Of a stretch of DNA of 64,000 bases, positions 22,532 through 46,540 are shown piece by piece. The notes beneath the pieces were generated by a model. That model was given only the letters and a program-made list of their open reading frames with translations, made no database searches and was not told where the DNA came from. This DNA comes from Burkholderia cepacia (GTDB lineage: Bacteria > Pseudomonadota > Gammaproteobacteria > Burkholderiales > Burkholderiaceae): positions 1,798,001-1,862,000 of the forward strand of contig NZ_CP073637.1 of assembly GCF_029962485.1 (NCBI RefSeq), read 5' to 3'. Positions within the stretch are counted from its first letter, which is position 1; every line of letters begins with the position of its first letter. A program made the position numbers and the translations under genes.

Positions 22532-22718
22532 CGCACGCGGCACGGCACGCACCGTGTCGAAACAGTGGAAAGGAAAAGGCGGGCGGCACATCGGCGGCCG
22601 GCGGACAGGCAATGCATGACGGATCGGGCGAAGCCCGCGCGAACGCGGGCGGAATGCGCACCCCATCCGTCCCCCGCGGATCGGGCGTTCGGCGAGCATC
22701 GGGCTCGCCCCTTGCGTC

Positions 22719-22891
22719 GGCCGGTATCCGGGCTGGCCGCTTGCCAGGCCGCAGCCTTCCCGCCCCGGTGAAGGGCAGTGGCATCGCGGGCGGCCTGGGC
22801 GCGTGCGCGGGGAGCGCGTCGCGCGGGCGGCGTACCGTTGCGGGGACAGCACAGGCCGGGCGGATGTCCGCCTCCTGTTTCCCGTTTAACT
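22719..22891 (-). promoter_or_regulatory. Cobalamin riboswitch ahead of cobA
   Basis: Read on the minus strand: TTAAACGGGAAACAGGAGG at the 5' end, then GCTGTCCCCGCAACGGTA, GCCACTG, GGGAAGGC and the B12 box CAGCCCGGATACCGGCC at the 3' end. These are the conserved core elements of the adenosylcobalamin riboswitch in the right order. The leader between it and cobA holds a GC-rich hairpin with a UUCG loop (22633-22650) but no T run. The off state is therefore likely translational or Rho-dependent. Confidence 0.93.
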
Positions 22892-23027
22892 GCATGCGCG
22901 GAATGCGCATGCGAGCACCGAACGCGGCGCTACGATAGCACACGGTTCGCCCGCGCGAACCGGCCACCGACGGCCTCCGGCGCGGCGCACGGGCGGTGCG
23001 CAACGCAGTCCGGCCGCCCATGGCGCC

Positions 23028-23056
23028 TTGACGCTCCCCGCACCGCCGCCTACACT
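23028..23056 (+). promoter_or_regulatory. Sigma-70 promoter of the cobW-cobN transcript
   Basis: TTGACG (23028-23033), a 17-base spacer and TACACT (23051-23056). The expected start, about 23063, lies some 35 bases before the riboswitch on the + strand. Confidence 0.55.
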
Positions 23057-23098
23057 CGCACGCGTTTTGGTGCTCGCGCGTGCCGCTCCGGTGCGCGC

Positions 23099-23299
23099 AG
23101 TTAAACGGGAAACAGGGAGCCTGCCTGCATCGCAGTCGAGCCAACCTGTGCTGCCCCCGCAACGGTAAGCGAACGTGTCGCGCGCAACGCGATGCAGCGC
23201 CGCTTCGCCGCCTGTCTCGTGCAGGCGGACGACCGCCACTGGATGCCGCGTGCATCCGGGAAGGCGAAGCGGCGTGTTCGCCAGCCCGGATACCGGCCT
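23099..23299 (+). promoter_or_regulatory. Cobalamin riboswitch ahead of cobW
   Basis: Plus-strand copy of the same class. Elements in order: GTTAAACGGGAAACAGGGAG, GCTGCCCCCGCAACGGTAA, GCCACTGGATG, GGGAAGGC and the B12 box CCAGCCCGGATACCGGCC (23281-23298). A GCGCCGC/GCGGCGC hairpin (23315-23334) follows 16 bases after the box and could be part of the switch. The leader to cobW is about 345 bases and holds a small ORF. Confidence 0.93.
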
Positions 23300-23502
23300 A
23301 AACATTGGGGTTCAGCGCCGCGGGGAGGCGGCGCATCGTCCACGGCCGCAGCAGGCCCGACGCCCGGTGTTTCCCGCTGTCTGCGCCGATCGGCCCCCGC
23401 GCGAATGCGCCCGGGCCGGCGCGGCGAACGGCAGGCGGCGCGGGCAGGGCCGGCGGCAGCCGTGTTGGCATTCACGATGTCGACCGTTCGCAAGGAAGCA
23501 CC

Positions 23503-23644: not shown

Positions 23645-24733
23645 ATGACCCTACGCAAGCTTCCCGTCACGATCGTCACGGGCTTTCTCGGCAGCGGCAA
23701 GACGACGCTGATGCGCCACATCCTGCAGCACGCCGAAGGCCGCCGCATCGCGGTGATCGTCAACGAATTCGGCGAACTCGGCATCGACGGCGAGATCCTC
23801 AAGGGCTGCGGCATCGGCTGTGAGGATGCCGAGGGCGCGCAGGGCGAAGCGTCGGGCCAGCTCTACGAACTCGCGAACGGCTGCCTGTGCTGCACCGTGC
23901 AGGAAGAGTTCTATCCGGTGATGGAAGCGCTCGTCGAGCGCCGTGCGGACATCGACCACGTGCTGATCGAGACGTCGGGCCTCGCGCTGCCGAAGCCGCT
24001 CGTGCAGGCGTTCAACTGGCCGACGATCCGCAACAGCTTCACGGTCGACGCGGTCGTGACCGTCGTCGACGGCCCGGCCGCCGCGAGCGGCCAGTTCGCG
24101 GAAAACCCGCAGGCCGTCGACGCACAGCGCCGCGCCGATCCGAACCTCGACCACGAATCGCCGCTGCACGAACTGTTCGCCGATCAGCTGTCGTCCGCCG
24201 ATCTCGTGATCGTCAACAAGGCCGATCTCGTCGGCGATGCGGAATTCGCGCAGATCGAAACCGCGATCCGCGACGAGATCCCGCCGCAGGTGAAGATCGT
24301 GCGCGCGACGCGCGGCGAGCTCGACCTCGCGATGCTGCTCGGTCTCGAATCGGCATCTGAAGAAACGATCCACCTGCGTCACGATCATCACGGCTCGGCC
24401 GACGACGGCGATCACGATCACCATCACGACGAATTCGACTCGGTGGTCGTGTCGGGCGACGCCGGGACGCGTGAGGCGACGATCGCCGCGCTGCAGCGGG
24501 TCGTCGAAGCGCACACGATCTACCGCGCGAAGGGTTTCGCCGCGCTGCCCGGCGCGCCGATGCGGCTCGTGATCCAGGGTGTCGGCCGCCGCTTCGACAG
24601 CTATTTCGACCGTCGCTGGCAGGACGGCGAAACGCGCGCGAGCCGCTTCGTGCTGATTGGCGAGGATCTCGACGCGGCCGCGCTGCAACGCGCGTTCGAC
24701 GCTGCGTGCGCGGCAGAGCCGCAACAGGCGTAA
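23645..24733 (+). CDS. cobW: CobW-family GTPase metallochaperone
   Basis: G3E-family P-loop GTPase thought to deliver cobalt to the CobN chelatase. The 362 residues show Walker A GFLGSGKTT (residues ~13-21), the metal-binding CxCC motif in NGCLCC near residue 80, the G4 motif VNKADL near 196, and a histidine/aspartate-rich loop (RHDHHG through DHDHHHDEFD, residues ~240-265) that fits metal capture. A C-terminal CobW_C domain follows. It lies six bases ahead of cobN in the same transcript and shares the riboswitch, so it is expected to be off when cobalamin is plentiful. Confidence 0.94.
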   Translation: MTLRKLPVTIVTGFLGSGKTTLMRHILQHAEGRRIAVIVNEFGELGIDGEILKGCGIGCEDAEGAQGEASGQLYELANGCLCCTVQEEFYPVMEALVERRADIDHVLIETSGLALPKPLVQAFNWPTIRNSFTVDAVVTVVDGPAAASGQFAENPQAVDAQRRADPNLDHESPLHELFADQLSSADLVIVNKADLVGDAEFAQIETAIRDEIPPQVKIVRATRGELDLAMLLGLESASEETIHLRHDHHGSADDGDHDHHHDEFDSVVVSGDAGTREATIAALQRVVEAHTIYRAKGFAALPGAPMRLVIQGVGRRFDSYFDRRWQDGETRASRFVLIGEDLDAAALQRAFDAACAAEPQQA

Positions 24734-24739
24734 CACACG

Positions 24740-27700
24740 ATGCATCTGTTGCGCACCACGCCGGGCGGCTTCGTCGACGATACGCAGGGTGTCGTCCGGA
24801 TCGACCAGCAGCCGGCCGACATCGTGATCCTGAGTTCGGCCGACACGACGCTGTCGCTGCTCGCGAGCGTCGTGCCGCAGTTGCCGGCCGGGTTCCCGAG
24901 CGTGCGGCTCGCGAACGTCACGTTCCTGCGCCAGCCGGCGTCGGTCGATTTCTACGTCGACGACGTGCTGCGCCACGCGAAAACGGTCGTGATCGATCAT
25001 CTCGGCGGCGAAGCGTACTGGCCGTACGGGATCGAGCAGGCCGTGTCGCTCGCGTCGAAGCGCGGGCAGCAGCTCGCGATGTTCTCTGGCGACCTGCAGG
25101 AAGATCCGAACCTCGTCGCGAAGAGCACCGTCACGCCGGATCTGTGCCGGCTGTGGTGGCGCTACCTGCGTGAAGGCGGCGTGCACAACGCCGACGCGCT
25201 GCTGCGCAGCATCGCCTTCCATACGCTCGGGTTCGGCGACGAACCCGAGTTGCCGCGCCCGCTGCCGGCCGCCGCGCTGTATCACCCGGCGCGCGACCGC
25301 GCGAGCGTCGACGACTGGCGGCCGCGCTGGACGCCCGGTGCACCCGTCGTCGCGATCCTGTTCTATCGCGCGCACTGGCAGGCCGCGAACACGGCCGTGT
25401 TCGACGCGCTGGCCGATGCGCTCGTCGACGAAGGGCTGAATCCGCTGCCGATTGCGGTGACGTCGCTGAAGGATGCGGTGAGCCGCGAGGTCATCACGCA
25501 GCTCTGCGACACGCACGACGTCGCGCTCGTACTGAACACGACCGCGTTCGCGGCCGGCGCGATCGACAGCCCCGAACACGACGTGCTCGCCGGCGACGCG
25601 CCGGTATTGCAGGTGATCCTGTCCGGCGGCAATCGCGACGCGTGGGTGGCCGACAACCAGGGCCTGCATGCGCGCGACATCGCGATGCACATCGCGTTGC
25701 CCGAGGTCGACGGCCGGATCGTCACGCGCGCAGTGAGCTTCAAGGGGCTCGCGTATCGCTGCCCGCACACCGAAGTCGATGTCGTGCGCTACCAGCCCGA
25801 CGCCGAGCGGATCGCGTTCGTCGCTGCGCTTGCGCGCGGCTGGTGCCGGCTGCGCACGCTCGACAATGCCGACAAGCGCGTCGCGCTGATTCTCGCGAAC
25901 TACCCGCAAAGCGAAGGGCGGATCGGCAACGGCGTCGGGCTCGACACGCCTGCGTCCGCGCTGCGCGTGCTCGCGGCGCTGCGCGACGCGGGCTACGCGC
26001 TGGCCGACCTGCCGCCCGACGGCGACGCGCTGATCGCCCGGCTCACCGAAGGCGTGACCAACGACGCGGCCGTGCATGCGTTGCGGCCCGCGTTCCAGAG
26101 CTTTCCGCTGGCCGACTACGTTGCGCGTTTCGCGCGGCTGCCGGCGTCCGTGCGCGACGCGCTGAACGAACGCTGGGGGCCGCCCGAAGCCGACCCGACA
26201 TTGCGGCAAGGGCGCTTCACGATCGCCGGCTGGCGCGCGGGCAACGTGTTCGTCGGCATCCAGCCGTCGCGCTCGCGCGGCGAGAACGATTACGCGAGCT
26301 ACCACGACGCGGATCTCGTGCCGCCGCACGCGTATCTCGCGTTCTATTTCTGGCTGCGCGATGCGTATCGCATCGACGCCGTCATCCATCTCGGCAAGCA
26401 CGGCAATCTCGAATGGCTGCCGGGCAAGAGCGTCGCGCTGTCCGACGCGTGCTGGCCCGACCTGACGCTCGGGCCGCTGCCGCACCTGTATCCGTTCATC
26501 GTCAACGATCCGGGCGAGGGCAGCCAGGCGAAGCGCCGCGCGCAGGCCGTGATCATCGATCACCTGATGCCGCCGCTCACGCGCGCAGAAAACTACGGCC
26601 CGCTGCAGGATCTCGAGCGGCAGGTCGACGAATACTACGAAGCGCTGATGGTCGATGCACGGCGCGCGAAGCTGCTGCGCAAGACGATCCTTGCGACGAT
26701 CGCCGAACATCGTCTGCATGACGAACTGAGCGTGTCGCCGCCGCGCGATGCGGGCGACGAGGATGCGCTCCTGACGCGCGTCGACGCATGGCTGTGCGAA
26801 CTGAAGGAAGCGCAGATTCGCGACGGGCTGCACGTATTCGGCATGTCGCCGGCCGATCGCCAGCGTCGCGACACGCTGCTCGCGCTCGCGCGCTTTCCGG
26901 TTGGCGACGGCAAGGGCGCTCGCGCGGGGTTGATCGGCGCGCTGGCGCGCGATCTCGCGCTTGGCGACGACTTCGATCCGCTCGCGGCCGACTGGGCCGC
27001 GCCGTGGGCCGGCCCGCGCCCGGCGGTCCTGCAGGCGCTCGACGCATCGCCGTGGCGCCATGCGGGCGATACGCGCGAGCGGCTCGAACGGCTTGCTCAG
27101 CAATGGCTGGACGGGCTGTGTACGGCCGATGGCGGCAACCCTGACGCCGACGCGATAGCGTCCGGCGAATGGCCGCACACGCTCGCGGTGATCGAGCGCG
27201 TCCGCGCGACGCTGCTGCCCGCGCTCGACGCGTGCGGCGGCGAGGAAATGCGCCAGCTTTTGCGCGGGCTCGACGGCCGCTTCGTGCCGCCGGGGCCGAG
27301 CGGCTCGCCGTCGCGCGGCCGCCCCGACGTGCTGCCGACCGGCCGCAATTTCTACTCGGTCGACACGCGTGCGGTGCCGACGCAGGCCGCCTGGTCGCTC
27401 GGCCTGAAATCCGCGCAGCAGCTGATCGAGCGGCATCTGCAGGATCACGGCGACTATCCCCGCGCGATCGGCCTGTCCGTCTGGGGCACGGCGACGATGC
27501 GCACGGGCGGCGACGACATCGCGCAGGCATTCGCGCTGCTCGGCGTGCGACCGAAATGGGCGCACGGCAGTCATCGTGTGACCGACTTCGAGATCCTGCC
27601 GATCGAGATCTTCGACCGGCCGCGCATCGACGTGACGCTGCGTGTGTCGGGCTTCTTCCGCGATGCGTTCCCGAACCTGATGCATCTGTTCGACGCGGCC

Positions 27701-28549
27701 GTGCAGGCGGTGGCCGCGCTCGACGAGCCCGAGGAACTGAACCCGATCCGCGCGCGCATCGAGCGCGAACGCGGGAAATGGATCGCGCAGGGCGTGGCAC
27801 CGGACGAAGCGCGGCGCCGTGCCGGCTGGCGCGTGTTCGGCGCGCGGCCGGGCAGCTACGGCGCGGGGCTGCAGGACCTGATCGACCAGCGCCGCTGGCA
27901 GACCGACGCCGATCTTGCCGATGCGTACCGCCAGTGGGGCGGCCATGCGTATGCGCAGAACAGCGCGGGCGACGCCGCGGCCGACGTGTTCGGCGAGCGG
28001 CTCGCGACGATCGACGTCGTCGTGCAGAACCAGGACAGCCGCGAGCACGACATCCTCGATTCGAACGACTACTACCAGTTCCAGGGCGGGATGACGGCGG
28101 CCGTCCGGCACCTGTCCGGGCAGCAGCCGAGCATCTACCACGGCGACCATGCGAACCCGGTCGCGCCGAAGATGCGCACGCTGCGTGAGGAAATCGCGCG
28201 CGTGATCCGCTCGCGTGTCGTCAACCCCAAATGGCTCGACGGCGTGAAGCGTCACGGTTACAAGGGCGCGGCCGAGATGGCCGCGACCGTCGACTACCTG
28301 TACGGCTACGACGCGACCGCACGCGTGCTGTCCGATCACCAGTACGCGCTCGTCGCCGACGCGTACCTGTTCGACGACGCCACCCGTGCATTCCTCGAAC
28401 GGCACAACCCGAAAGCGCTGCACGGCATCTGCGAACGCTTCGTCGAGGCGATGCAGCGCGGCCTGTGGCAGCAGCCGGGCGACTATCGCGAGCGGATCGA
28501 AGCGGTCTGGCTCGCGAGCGAACAATTCCAGGAAGGGGGACGGCGATGA
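24740..28549 (+). CDS. cobN: Cobaltochelatase large subunit CobN
   Basis: Large catalytic subunit that binds hydrogenobyrinic acid a,c-diamide and inserts cobalt, powered by the AAA+ and VWA subunits. At 1269 residues it is full length. The family core is visible at residues ~510-580: SRGENDYASYHDADLVPPHAY, then VIHLGKHGNLEWLPGKSVALS, which carries the conserved HxG.HG.xEWLPG block shared with magnesium-chelatase H subunits. Further down is GSYGAGLQDLIDQRRW. The stop overlaps the ATPase start (ATGA), so the chelatase subunits are translated together. It lies in the cobW riboswitch transcript. Confidence 0.95.
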   Translation: MHLLRTTPGGFVDDTQGVVRIDQQPADIVILSSADTTLSLLASVVPQLPAGFPSVRLANVTFLRQPASVDFYVDDVLRHAKTVVIDHLGGEAYWPYGIEQAVSLASKRGQQLAMFSGDLQEDPNLVAKSTVTPDLCRLWWRYLREGGVHNADALLRSIAFHTLGFGDEPELPRPLPAAALYHPARDRASVDDWRPRWTPGAPVVAILFYRAHWQAANTAVFDALADALVDEGLNPLPIAVTSLKDAVSREVITQLCDTHDVALVLNTTAFAAGAIDSPEHDVLAGDAPVLQVILSGGNRDAWVADNQGLHARDIAMHIALPEVDGRIVTRAVSFKGLAYRCPHTEVDVVRYQPDAERIAFVAALARGWCRLRTLDNADKRVALILANYPQSEGRIGNGVGLDTPASALRVLAALRDAGYALADLPPDGDALIARLTEGVTNDAAVHALRPAFQSFPLADYVARFARLPASVRDALNERWGPPEADPTLRQGRFTIAGWRAGNVFVGIQPSRSRGENDYASYHDADLVPPHAYLAFYFWLRDAYRIDAVIHLGKHGNLEWLPGKSVALSDACWPDLTLGPLPHLYPFIVNDPGEGSQAKRRAQAVIIDHLMPPLTRAENYGPLQDLERQVDEYYEALMVDARRAKLLRKTILATIAEHRLHDELSVSPPRDAGDEDALLTRVDAWLCELKEAQIRDGLHVFGMSPADRQRRDTLLALARFPVGDGKGARAGLIGALARDLALGDDFDPLAADWAAPWAGPRPAVLQALDASPWRHAGDTRERLERLAQQWLDGLCTADGGNPDADAIASGEWPHTLAVIERVRATLLPALDACGGEEMRQLLRGLDGRFVPPGPSGSPSRGRPDVLPTGRNFYSVDTRAVPTQAAWSLGLKSAQQLIERHLQDHGDYPRAIGLSVWGTATMRTGGDDIAQAFALLGVRPKWAHGSHRVTDFEILPIEIFDRPRIDVTLRVSGFFRDAFPNLMHLFDAAVQAVAALDEPEELNPIRARIERERGKWIAQGVAPDEARRRAGWRVFGARPGSYGAGLQDLIDQRRWQTDADLADAYRQWGGHAYAQNSAGDAAADVFGERLATIDVVVQNQDSREHDILDSNDYYQFQGGMTAAVRHLSGQQPSIYHGDHANPVAPKMRTLREEIARVIRSRVVNPKWLDGVKRHGYKGAAEMAATVDYLYGYDATARVLSDHQYALVADAYLFDDATRAFLERHNPKALHGICERFVEAMQRGLWQQPGDYRERIEAVWLASEQFQEGGRR

Positions 28550-29622
28550 CCGATCCGACGACGCACCGCACCCGCGCGGTCTTTCCGTTTGCGGCGCTGG
28601 TCGCGCAGGATGCATTGCAGCAGGCGCTGCTGCTCGCCGCGATCGACCCGTCGCTCGGCGGCGTGCTCGTGAGCGGCCCGCGCGGCACCGCGAAATCGAC
28701 CGCGGCGCGTGGCCTCGCGGAGCTGTTGCCCGAGGGGCAATTCGTGACGCTGCCGCTGTCGGCGAGCGACGAACAGGTGACGGGCACGCTCGATCTCGCG
28801 CATGCACTGGCAGAAAACGGCGTGCGCTTCCGGCCGGGCCTGCTCGCGCGTGCGCACCTCGGCGTGTTGTACGTCGACGAAGTGAACCTGCTCGCCGACG
28901 GGCTCGTCGATACGCTGCTGGACGTCGCCGCGAGCGGCGTGAATATCGTCGAGCGCGATGGCGTGTCGCACGCGCACGACGCGCGCTTCGTGCTGGTCGG
29001 TACGATGAATCCCGAGGAGGGCGAGCTGCGCCCGCAACTGCTCGATCGCTTCGGGTTGATGGTCGAACTGGAGAACTGCTTCGACGCCGCGCAGCGCGAG
29101 CGGATCGTGAAGGCGCGGCTGGCATTCGATCTCGATCCGGATGCATTTCGCGCGCGTCATGCGCCCGCCCAGCGTGAACTCGGTGACCGGATTCATGCAG
29201 CGCGCGCACGGCTGGCGACGCTCGATTTCGACGATGCGGTCCATGCGCGCGTCAGCGCGCTGTGCATCGATGCGGCCGTCGACGGGCTGCGTGCCGATCT
29301 CGTGATGCTGCGCGCCGCGCGCGCGCTGGCGGCGCTGGAACAGGCCGACGCGGTGACGGTGTCGCATGTGGAGCGCGTGGCGCAGGCCGTGCTGCGGCAC
29401 CGGCGCCATGCGGGTACGCCGCCGTCGCACGGATCGCCGCAACCAAACCGTGAACGCGACGATGGTTCGCCGCCGGATGCGCGCCAGCGGCCCGACAACC
29501 GACAGGACGAGACACAAGGCGATGCATCGGCGTCCCAGGGCGACTGGGGCTACTTGCCGCCCGAGCCGGCTGGCCTGCGCGAAGTCAAAGGCGTCGTGCC
29601 GCTGCCGCTAAAAAAACGCTGA
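28546..29622 (+). CDS. ChlI/BchI-type AAA+ ATPase, small chelatase subunit (zero-frame product)
   Basis: A 358-residue AAA+ ATPase that should drive cobalt insertion by CobN in place of CobS. Walker A GPRGTAKST (residues ~43-51), Walker B VLYVDEVNLL near 105, and the chelatase signature GTMNPEEGELRPQLLDRFG near 150 are intact. An acidic, low-complexity proline-rich linker follows (residues ~290-340, PSHGSPQPNRERDD). The ATG overlaps the cobN stop, and AGGAAGGGGG lies at 28530. It ends at TGA immediately after seven A's and just before a strong hairpin, the layout of a -1 frameshift site. The gene therefore probably makes this protein and a longer ChlD-like one. Linker plus VWA domain is the normal continuation of ChlD. 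Confidence 0.9.
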   Translation: MTDPTTHRTRAVFPFAALVAQDALQQALLLAAIDPSLGGVLVSGPRGTAKSTAARGLAELLPEGQFVTLPLSASDEQVTGTLDLAHALAENGVRFRPGLLARAHLGVLYVDEVNLLADGLVDTLLDVAASGVNIVERDGVSHAHDARFVLVGTMNPEEGELRPQLLDRFGLMVELENCFDAAQRERIVKARLAFDLDPDAFRARHAPAQRELGDRIHAARARLATLDFDDAVHARVSALCIDAAVDGLRADLVMLRAARALAALEQADAVTVSHVERVAQAVLRHRRHAGTPPSHGSPQPNRERDDGSPPDARQRPDNRQDETQGDASASQGDWGYLPPEPAGLREVKGVVPLPLKKR

Positions 29623-29670
29623 GCCATCGAGCCGGCGCCGCCGCGAACGCCGTTCGCGGTCCTCGATGGC
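29610..29670 (+). promoter_or_regulatory. Programmed -1 ribosomal frameshift signal in chlI/D
   Basis: Slippery heptamer A-AAA-AAA at 29610-29616 in phase with the ATPase frame, then a six-base spacer (29617-29622) holding the TGA stop. Then comes a two-tier hairpin: outer perfect stem GCCATCGAG (29623-29631) with CTCGATGGC (29662-29670), inner stem CCGCGAAC (29641-29648) with GTTCGCGG (29652-29659). Slipping back one base continues into the VWA frame with no stop. Frameshift signals that yield both chelatase subunits are known in chlD genes. Confidence 0.85.
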
Positions 29671-30299
29671 AGTCAGGCGCAACCGCGCGCTTACCGGGCA
29701 CGGCACGCGCGGGCAAGGCCGTTGCGTGGCCGGCGACGCTCGTCGCGAAGCGCGGTGGACCGCTGTGTCATGAGCATGTGCGCTTCCGGAAACGCGCGGG
29801 CACGCCGCAGGCGCTGCATTGCTTCGTGCTCGACTGTTCGGCGTCGATGCTGTCGCACGACCGGCTCGCGCTCGCAAAGGGGCTGATCGTCGCGTATTTC
29901 GATCAGGCTGCACGCGAGCGTGTCGAAACCGCGCTGATCTGCTTCGGCGGTCAAGGCGCCGCACGGCGGTTCGGCCCGGCCGTGCCGCGCTGGTGGAATG
30001 CGCGCTGGCTCGAACCGGTCGACGGCGGCGGCGGCACGCCGCTCGCGGACGGCATCGCGGCCGCCACGCAGTTGCTCGCGCGCGATGCGCGGCGCGAGCC
30101 CGGCAAGCAGCGCTGGCTGTGGGTGCTGTCCGACGGGCGCACGCGCGAGACGGCGGCAAAACCCGCGGCGGCCGATCACGTCGTGTTCGTCGACTTCGAC
30201 GATGCGGCCGTGCGGATCGGGCAGGGCGCGCGGCTTGCCGCCGCATGGGGCGCGCAATGGATGACGGCGGACGCGCTTCGCACGGATCTCGCGGGCTGA
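29616..30299 (+). CDS. ChlD-like VWA-domain extension, medium chelatase subunit (via -1 frameshift)
   Basis: The part translated after the -1 shift, 227 residues, giving a 584-residue fusion with the upstream ATPase. After a basic linker (WPATLVAKRGGPLCHEHVRFR) comes an integrin-I/VWA domain with an intact MIDAS: DCSAS (29832 region), threonine in GGGTPLADG, and aspartate in SDGRTRE. In magnesium and cobalt chelatases this domain docks the ATPase ring on the large subunit. No ATG or TTG lies in this frame between the shift site and the domain. The first candidate, GTG at 29778, has no ribosome site and would lose conserved linker. That argues for synthesis as a fusion. Frame, length and MIDAS are seen; the frameshift is inferred. 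Confidence 0.82.
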   Translation, partial: TLSHRAGAAANAVRGPRWQSGATARLPGTARAGKAVAWPATLVAKRGGPLCHEHVRFRKRAGTPQALHCFVLDCSASMLSHDRLALAKGLIVAYFDQAARERVETALICFGGQGAARRFGPAVPRWWNARWLEPVDGGGGTPLADGIAAATQLLARDARREPGKQRWLWVLSDGRTRETAAKPAAADHVVFVDFDDAAVRIGQGARLAAAWGAQWMTADALRTDLAG

Positions 30300-46137: not shown

Positions 46138-46218
46138 CGGGATACCGGGACAGTGTCGCGCCGCGGCCAACGCATCGGTACACCCCGCCCGACGCCGACT
46201 GGCACGCACGCACTTTCT

Positions 46219-46382
46219 GGCCGGCAGGTCTCCTGGCTGACAGGTCGGCGCCGGCTCCCGGCCTTCCCGGTGAAACCAGTGGCATGAAGGGGAGATCGGC
46301 TCGCTGTCTACAGTTGCGGGGGCAGCCACAGCGGCGCGTGGCGCGCCCTGTGTTCCCTCTTCGGCCCCGAAGGGCACCGGCG
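46219..46382 (-). promoter_or_regulatory. Cobalamin riboswitch ahead of cobG
   Basis: Third switch of the window, minus strand. Elements in order: GAGGGAACACAGGG, GGCTGCCCCCGCAACTGTAG, GCCACTGG, GGGAAGGC and a near-consensus B12 box CAGCCAGGAGACCTGCC. An extra TTCGGGGCCGAA hairpin lies at the 5' end. A TATCCT (46401-46396) just upstream may be the -10 element. No T-run terminator follows, so control is probably at the TTG start region. Confidence 0.93.
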
Positions 46383-46540
46383 AACGAACGGCCGTAGGAT
46401 ACCCGATTTTCACGACGCTCCGGCATCGGCGGGTTTGCCCTGCAGCCGCGTCGCAGCACGGCTGTGGCGGATTGCGCGAGCGCGCGCGGATGGTACGATT
46501 GGCGGCTCGACATCCGACCGGCGATCCGCCGGGATCCGCA

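Follow-up and report, generated by a model that had tools for sequence, protein, structure and literature searches.

A conserved -1 frameshift signal in the chlD gene next to cobN of Burkholderia cepacia, predicted to yield two chelatase motor subunits

In a 64,000-nucleotide stretch of the Burkholderia cepacia genome (contig NZ_CP073637.1 of assembly GCF_029962485.1; the whole stretch is hereafter the window), the gene that follows cobN is predicted to be a frameshifted chlD gene (fs-chlD), in which a -1 slip on the heptamer A_AAA_AAA yields a ChlI-like and a ChlD-like product, the putative motor for the cobaltochelatase subunit CobN. Judged from sequence comparison, this reading has a probability of about 93%. 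The slip signal, its phase, the two frames, their conservation, the covariation in the downstream stem and the co-occurrence with cobN are established here. We propose that most ribosomes would terminate at TGA 29620 to give a ChlI-like AAA+ ATPase, while a minority, delayed by a hairpin, would slip one base back on A_AAA_AAA and translate through the VWA domain to make a ChlD-like subunit. The two products may then form an AAA+ motor that drives CobN, in place of the CobS and CobT used elsewhere. We infer from these features the occurrence and frequency of slippage as well as the joining of both products to CobN.

The zero frame, set by ATG 28546 and read both directly and by script, runs CTA AAA AAA CGC TGA at 29608-29622 and contains 358 codons ahead of the stop. 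From 29616, 227 codons are open in the -1 frame up to the stop at 30297-30299, and a shift at the second AAA would give a product of 357 + 227 = 584 residues. A two-tier hairpin begins after a spacer of 6 bases: its outer stem (29623-29631 with 29662-29670) is paired 9/9, its inner stem (29641-29648 with 29652-29659) is paired 8/8 around a 3-base loop, and the internal loop between the stems consists of 9 + 2 bases. The predicted fold has -30.7 kcal/mol, compared to -22.9 +/- 3.2 in 200 dinucleotide shuffles (z -2.4), of which 2 were equally stable. Runs of seven As are rare in the window, with 3 matches in two places (both strands) against 0.25 expected. A first-pass annotation made from the letters alone had described the heptamer and its phase, the two perfect stems, the lengths of 358 and 584 residues for the predicted products and a VWA/MIDAS frame open to 30299, all of which were borne out. 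No Shine-Dalgarno (SD)-like stimulator close 5' of the heptamer was seen by eye, an Rfam search of the window matched no family at the shift site and cobalamin riboswitches only, and a near-identity plasmid search with the chlD gene gave no match.

Searched separately, the AAA+ part matches TIGR02442 at 6.8e-114 (381.6 bits) and the VWA part matches the same family at 1.3e-18 (66.8 bits) as well as VWA_2 (PF13519). Neither piece, scored one at a time, reaches the TIGR02442 cut-off of 779.45, and no single open frame spans both domains. TIGR02442, a fused putative cobaltochelatase subunit, has the same domains in the same order; it is one chain, whereas the gene in the window is split by -1.

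The signal is nearly invariant in the genus and in the family. With the VWA part as query, 63 of 65 genus genomes were positive, and a script was used to read all 63 junctions. In 63/63 sequences the VWA frame lies at -1 relative to the AAA+ frame and the zero-frame stop is TGA; 61 sequences have the heptamer AAAAAAA and 2 have AAAAAAG, and the codon after the heptamer is CGC in 59, CAC in 3 and GCC in 1. At the family level, 155 of 299 genomes have a match to the AAA+ part, 40 of them within the genus; 110 of the 115 matches in other genera were retrieved, and the 5 that had no listed position were left out. Among the 104 strong matches from other genera (L118-L221), 103 combine the -1 arrangement with A_AAA_AA(A/G)-NNN-stop. 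The six weak family matches differ in type: in L225 a single frame holds both domains, L222, L226 and L227 have long open frames without a match to the VWA query, and L223 and L224 are short ChlI-like genes. Taken together, 168 sequences of genus and family have a VWA match, and 166 of them have A_AAA_AA(A/G) in place, counted as sequences and not as independent events; the stop follows one codon after the heptamer in all 166 (TGA 163, TAG 2, TAA 1). The MIDAS motif is present in 165 of these carriers, and the remaining sequence has Ns. The two-product signal fits this pattern, because the heptamer and the stop are kept together, though a small change would fuse the gene, as in some relatives.

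In a wider survey, limited to the best 80 of a longer list of named loci, the signal is present in 69 (A7 in 36; A6G in 33, mainly those of Pseudomonas), 9 are fused and 2 could not be judged (L266, an odd fragment, and L268, at a contig end). The junctions of 17 of these 69 are identical to some among the 166, and the two sets thus overlap. The named relatives include Burkholderia arboris LMG 24066 (AAA+ part 95%). At the class level, 22 loci including our own, from 21 of 369 genomes, comprise 6 with the signal, 10 fused and 6 others. In Pseudomonas the heptamer, its phase, the one-codon distance to the stop and the stem are also kept, with A_AAA_AAG; the chelatase frameshift signal described there likewise combines a heptamer and a stop with a stem that starts immediately 3' of the stop (Atkins et al., 2016, PMC5009743). 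The Pseudomonas loci have A_AAA_AAG and mostly TAG, whereas the gene in the window has A7 and TGA, and the stem sequence differs. As a separate observation, L262 of Acidovorax sp. SUPP3334 has the domains fused in one frame, though its AAA+ part is 63% identical to that of the window; other betaproteobacterial named loci, e.g., those of Variovorax and Hydrogenophaga, are frameshifted, unlike L262, and the cobN match in the genome of L262 contains internal stops.

The stem varies by compensation. The genus alignment used 52 of the 63 sequences (44 distinct rows); L070-L080, a more distant group of 11 in which L079 has Ns, were left out because the inner part of their stem differs. In this alignment the outer helix is paired in 100% and the inner helix in 95.7% of cells, and pairing falls to 24-43% when the partners are slid by 1 to 3 columns. 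Four pairs change on both sides, compared to 1.0 in shuffles, and none of 500 shuffles reaches 4. The outer stem was further counted in 164 distinct sequences (of the 166, one with Ns was skipped and one was a duplicate), with the partner taken as the best choice for real and shuffled downstream DNA alike. The nine bases 3' of the stop pair 9/9 in 117, 8 in 41 and 7 in 6 sequences, compared to 0.9, 14.4 and 65.4 of 164 for shuffled DNA; at least 8/9 are paired in 158/164 versus 15.3/164, although a few of the selected partners form odd loops and may be incorrect. Base pairs 4 and 5 vary in concert, with AT (147) giving way to GC (15) and TA (143) to CG (18), and position 1 is unpaired in 27/164. 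Among 41 sampled sequences that were folded, 36 have z below -1 relative to simple shuffles, with a mean z of -2.0. The conservation of heptamer and stem in relatives, which the first-pass annotation had proposed as a check, is thus found in both genus and family.

The loss pattern links the gene to cobN: the VWA part and cobN occur in the same 63 of the 65 genus genomes, and neither was found in G016 (completeness 99%) or G057 (only 82%). It is hardly credible that the gene is disabled, an ordinary frameshift mutation having split an old fused chlD: fused in-frame relatives do exist, but 166 sequences share the identical split, heptamer and stop, almost all with an intact MIDAS motif, and the losses track cobN. 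Slippage of RNA polymerase on the A run, by which part of the mRNA would be altered in frame, is highly improbable as well. The run is homopolymeric and has eight As in 2/166 carriers; it is held, however, at seven in 160/166 and at six followed by G in 4/166, and A6G accounts for 33 of the 69 named heptamer loci. A6G is too short for efficient transcript slippage, and this mechanism offers no obvious use for the conserved stem 3' of the stop. Ribosomal slippage is favored because of the A6G forms and the stem.

The VWA protein could also be made separately from an internal start, e.g., GTG 29778, by coupling or by re-initiation after TGA 29620, which we regard as very unlikely. The first-pass annotation had held that the VWA frame has no credible start of its own. 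This GTG does lie in the -1 frame, but no SD-like motif precedes an internal start in the window gene. In 153 of 165 sequences, the -1 frame has at least one ATG, GTG or TTG on the stretch from the slip site to the VWA core, so that the start-codon argument alone is not decisive, and the relevant part of Antonov et al. (2013; PMC3711429) gives evidence of downstream initiation in some experiments, with the gene not named. Internal initiation is disfavored because 12/165 sequences have no usual start codon in that interval and an SD-like motif precedes an internal start in just 8/165. Moreover, 6/165 are still without a start when the open -1 frame is followed 5' beyond the slip site, and a start at the position of 29778 is common to only 4/63 genus sequences, that of the window included.

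The gene is the third of cobW-cobN-chlD, with a cobalamin riboswitch on the same strand (Table 1), and the stop of cobN and the start of the AAA+ frame overlap as ATGA. In the window genome (G000; 7.7 Mb, three contigs), cobN at this locus is the one match to PF02514, and a single BchI/ChlI match is found at 1e-40. All three riboswitches of the window (22702-22937 on the minus strand, 23051-23315 on the plus strand and 46206-46396 on the minus strand) are of the cobalamin type. Two of them lie 5' of cobW on opposite strands, and the one at 22702-22937 overlaps the start of an open reading frame (ORF) taken as uroporphyrinogen-III methyltransferase-like. The cobN match is in two pieces in the genus relatives G026, G063 and G025, by gene damage or assembly.

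Table 1. Positions of the fs-chlD elements, their operon context and the distant CobS/CobT-like locus (window coordinates unless stated)
Feature	Position	Strand	Basis
Cobalamin riboswitch, 5' of cobW-cobN-chlD	23051..23315	+	Rfam RF00174, 63.4 bits vs gathering 31.5
cobW	23645..24733	+	TIGR02475, above cut-off
cobN, large cobaltochelatase subunit	24740..28549	+	TIGR02257, 1590 bits, above cut-off
Zero frame of fs-chlD: ChlI-like AAA+ product, 358 residues, linker tail	28546..29622	+	ORF reading and profile matches
Slippery heptamer A_AAA_AAA	29610..29616	+	Read from sequence
Zero-frame stop TGA, one codon past heptamer	29620..29622	+	Read from sequence
Two-tier hairpin, putative stimulator of the shift	29623..29670	+	Folding and covariation
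-1 frame: linker and VWA/MIDAS domain, C-terminal part of predicted 584-residue ChlD-like product	29616..30299	+	ORF and profile matches
CobS/CobT-like AAA+/VWA pair, IclR-type regulator, TauE-type gene, molybdenum cofactor (MoCo)/iron-sulfur (Fe-S)/DmsC operon	L046:5956-16302 = G000 contig 2 ~1193955-1204301		

Several observations weigh against the proposed shift or against parts of the proposal. L202 (G297) is the sole strong relative of the 104 without the usual signal, having an early zero-frame stop and an A6 run further on. In the 44 genus rows, the covariation measures other than the both-side changes are weaker and are reached by 3 to 13 of 500 shuffles, including the cells paired (98.0 versus 97.5 in shuffles; 7/500) and the covariation score (0.038 versus 0.032; 13/500), and 13/44 rows lack pairing at the base pair that closes the inner loop. 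On contig 2 of the window genome, a CobS-like and a CobT-like gene lie at 1195885-1198514. Lastly, the 19 genomes with a confirmed fused gene have cobN and one ChlI-like gene found, which speaks against a strict requirement for two products.

The need for two products was checked in 34 genomes, comprising 21 with a fused gene or a long open frame (19 of 20 confirmed fused and 2 long open frames with unconfirmed VWA) and 13 signal carriers. CobN-family matches are present in all 34 and a single BchI/ChlI match at 1e-40 in 33, the exception being G644, which carries the signal and has an additional gene of BchI type. Because the fused relatives have cobN and one ChlI-like gene found, the requirement for both products is weakened; from these sequences, a fused polypeptide seems sufficient in some lineages and the separate short product seems not to be universally required. 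The first-pass prediction of both chelatase subunits from one gene by a -1 shift is thus supported by comparison, while the necessity of both is weakened. Since one ChlI-like gene seems to be enough for the fused relatives, the function of the shift may lie in the subunit ratio and not in providing a missing part. In Escherichia coli, dnaX has an A_AAA_AAR heptamer and a downstream hairpin, and the shift makes the shorter product. The window gene is alike in heptamer and hairpin, whereas here the shift would make the longer product. A dnaX-like signal was sought in the 19 fused chlD frames: 14 are without A6(A/G) or T6(T/C), and L281, L297, L308, L318 and L323 have some such runs. L323, which is A/T-rich, has several slip-phase runs, of which a few lie at residues 349-378 with a -1 stop within 1 to 9 codons; these runs are probably an effect of base composition. 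As a side observation, the genome of L258 (G704, Cupriavidus basilensis OR16) has six separate CobN-family matches, several of which are pieces.

CobS and CobT are missing from the neighborhood of the window gene, as the first-pass annotation had stated, but the genome holds the contig 2 pair and weaker CobS/CobT-like genes on contig 3. The contig 2 CobS-like protein narrowly misses the TIGR01650 cut-off (537.4 versus 558.55), and the CobT-like protein falls below that of TIGR01651 (281.4 versus 759.05). On contig 3 (L047:4849-7759), genes for an AAA_5/CbbQ_C ATPase and, after it, a CobT_C-type VWA protein lie close to an MHYT histidine kinase gene. A CobS-like gene is found at 1e-60 in 19/65 genus genomes, including that of the window, with none above the family cut-off, and 45 of the 63 cobN-bearing genus genomes have no CobS-like match at 1e-60. 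The pair is probably not the partner of CobN, because in 19/19 carriers it adjoins relatives of the IclR-type regulator and the TauE-type gene and because in one carrier, G016, cobN and the VWA part were not found; the pair therefore does not track cobN, whereas fs-chlD does. A three-gene molybdoenzyme operon lies beside the pair in 18/19 carriers, the contig ending first in the nineteenth. Its proteins match the dimethyl sulfoxide (DMSO) reductase family at large, below cut-offs; the operon may encode a sulfite dehydrogenase (SoeABC), and the TauE-type exporter beside it points to a possible role of the molybdoenzyme in sulfite oxidation. With a little less than even odds in our judgment, we propose jointly that fs-chlD would be the sole source of CobN motor subunits in the genus, that the CobS/CobT-like pair would be no cobaltochelatase and would instead act as an AAA+/VWA machine for the DMSO-reductase-family molybdoenzyme next to it, and that the shift would set the motor ratio. 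Our literature search found no paper joining CobS/CobT with MoxR and molybdenum, or molybdopterin with VWA, and the passages of PMC2864759, a match for cobaltochelatase with sulfite dehydrogenase and TauE, have no bearing on the pair.

Neither the kind of gene nor its occurrence in Burkholderia is new, because Antonov et al. (2013; PMC3711429) list Burkholderia among six genera with a total of 23 -1 frameshifted chlD genes; the first-pass annotation had named Antonov and colleagues for frameshifting in chlD genes in general. In the same source, shifting in E. coli reached 63% with an 11-A cassette, 40% with 9 As and 10% with 7 As. Such genes, as treated there and in part of Kuznetsov et al. 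(2022; PMC9227772), likewise have a -1 shift at A_AAA_AAR, a downstream structure, a cobN context, and a ChlI-like short and a ChlD-like long product, with no essential difference from the gene described here. The portion of Atkins et al. (2016; PMC5009743) on this heptamer places A_AAA_AAR under purifying selection and finds the sequence of the structure not strongly conserved; the available part of PMC7242693 makes no mention of a chlD shift. In the window gene we found three features by which the group is recognized, i.e., overlapping AAA+ and VWA frames with VWA at -1, a conserved in-phase A_AAA_AAR and a downstream structure predicted to be stimulatory. Further work on fs-chlD genes was reportedly carried out by Antonov in 2020. 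The present comparison adds, as possibly new points for the family, that the stop always lies one codon past the heptamer in signal carriers and that the stem varies by compensatory changes.

For annotation, these results caution that the VWA half should not be called as a gene of its own and that the CobS and CobT names given to a distant locus in some members of the genus may mislead on cobalt loading. As a clean and strongly conserved member of a recoding family already in print, the gene offers a good case for study, in which the heptamer and its distance to the stop are nearly invariant across a bacterial family while the stem varies by compensation.

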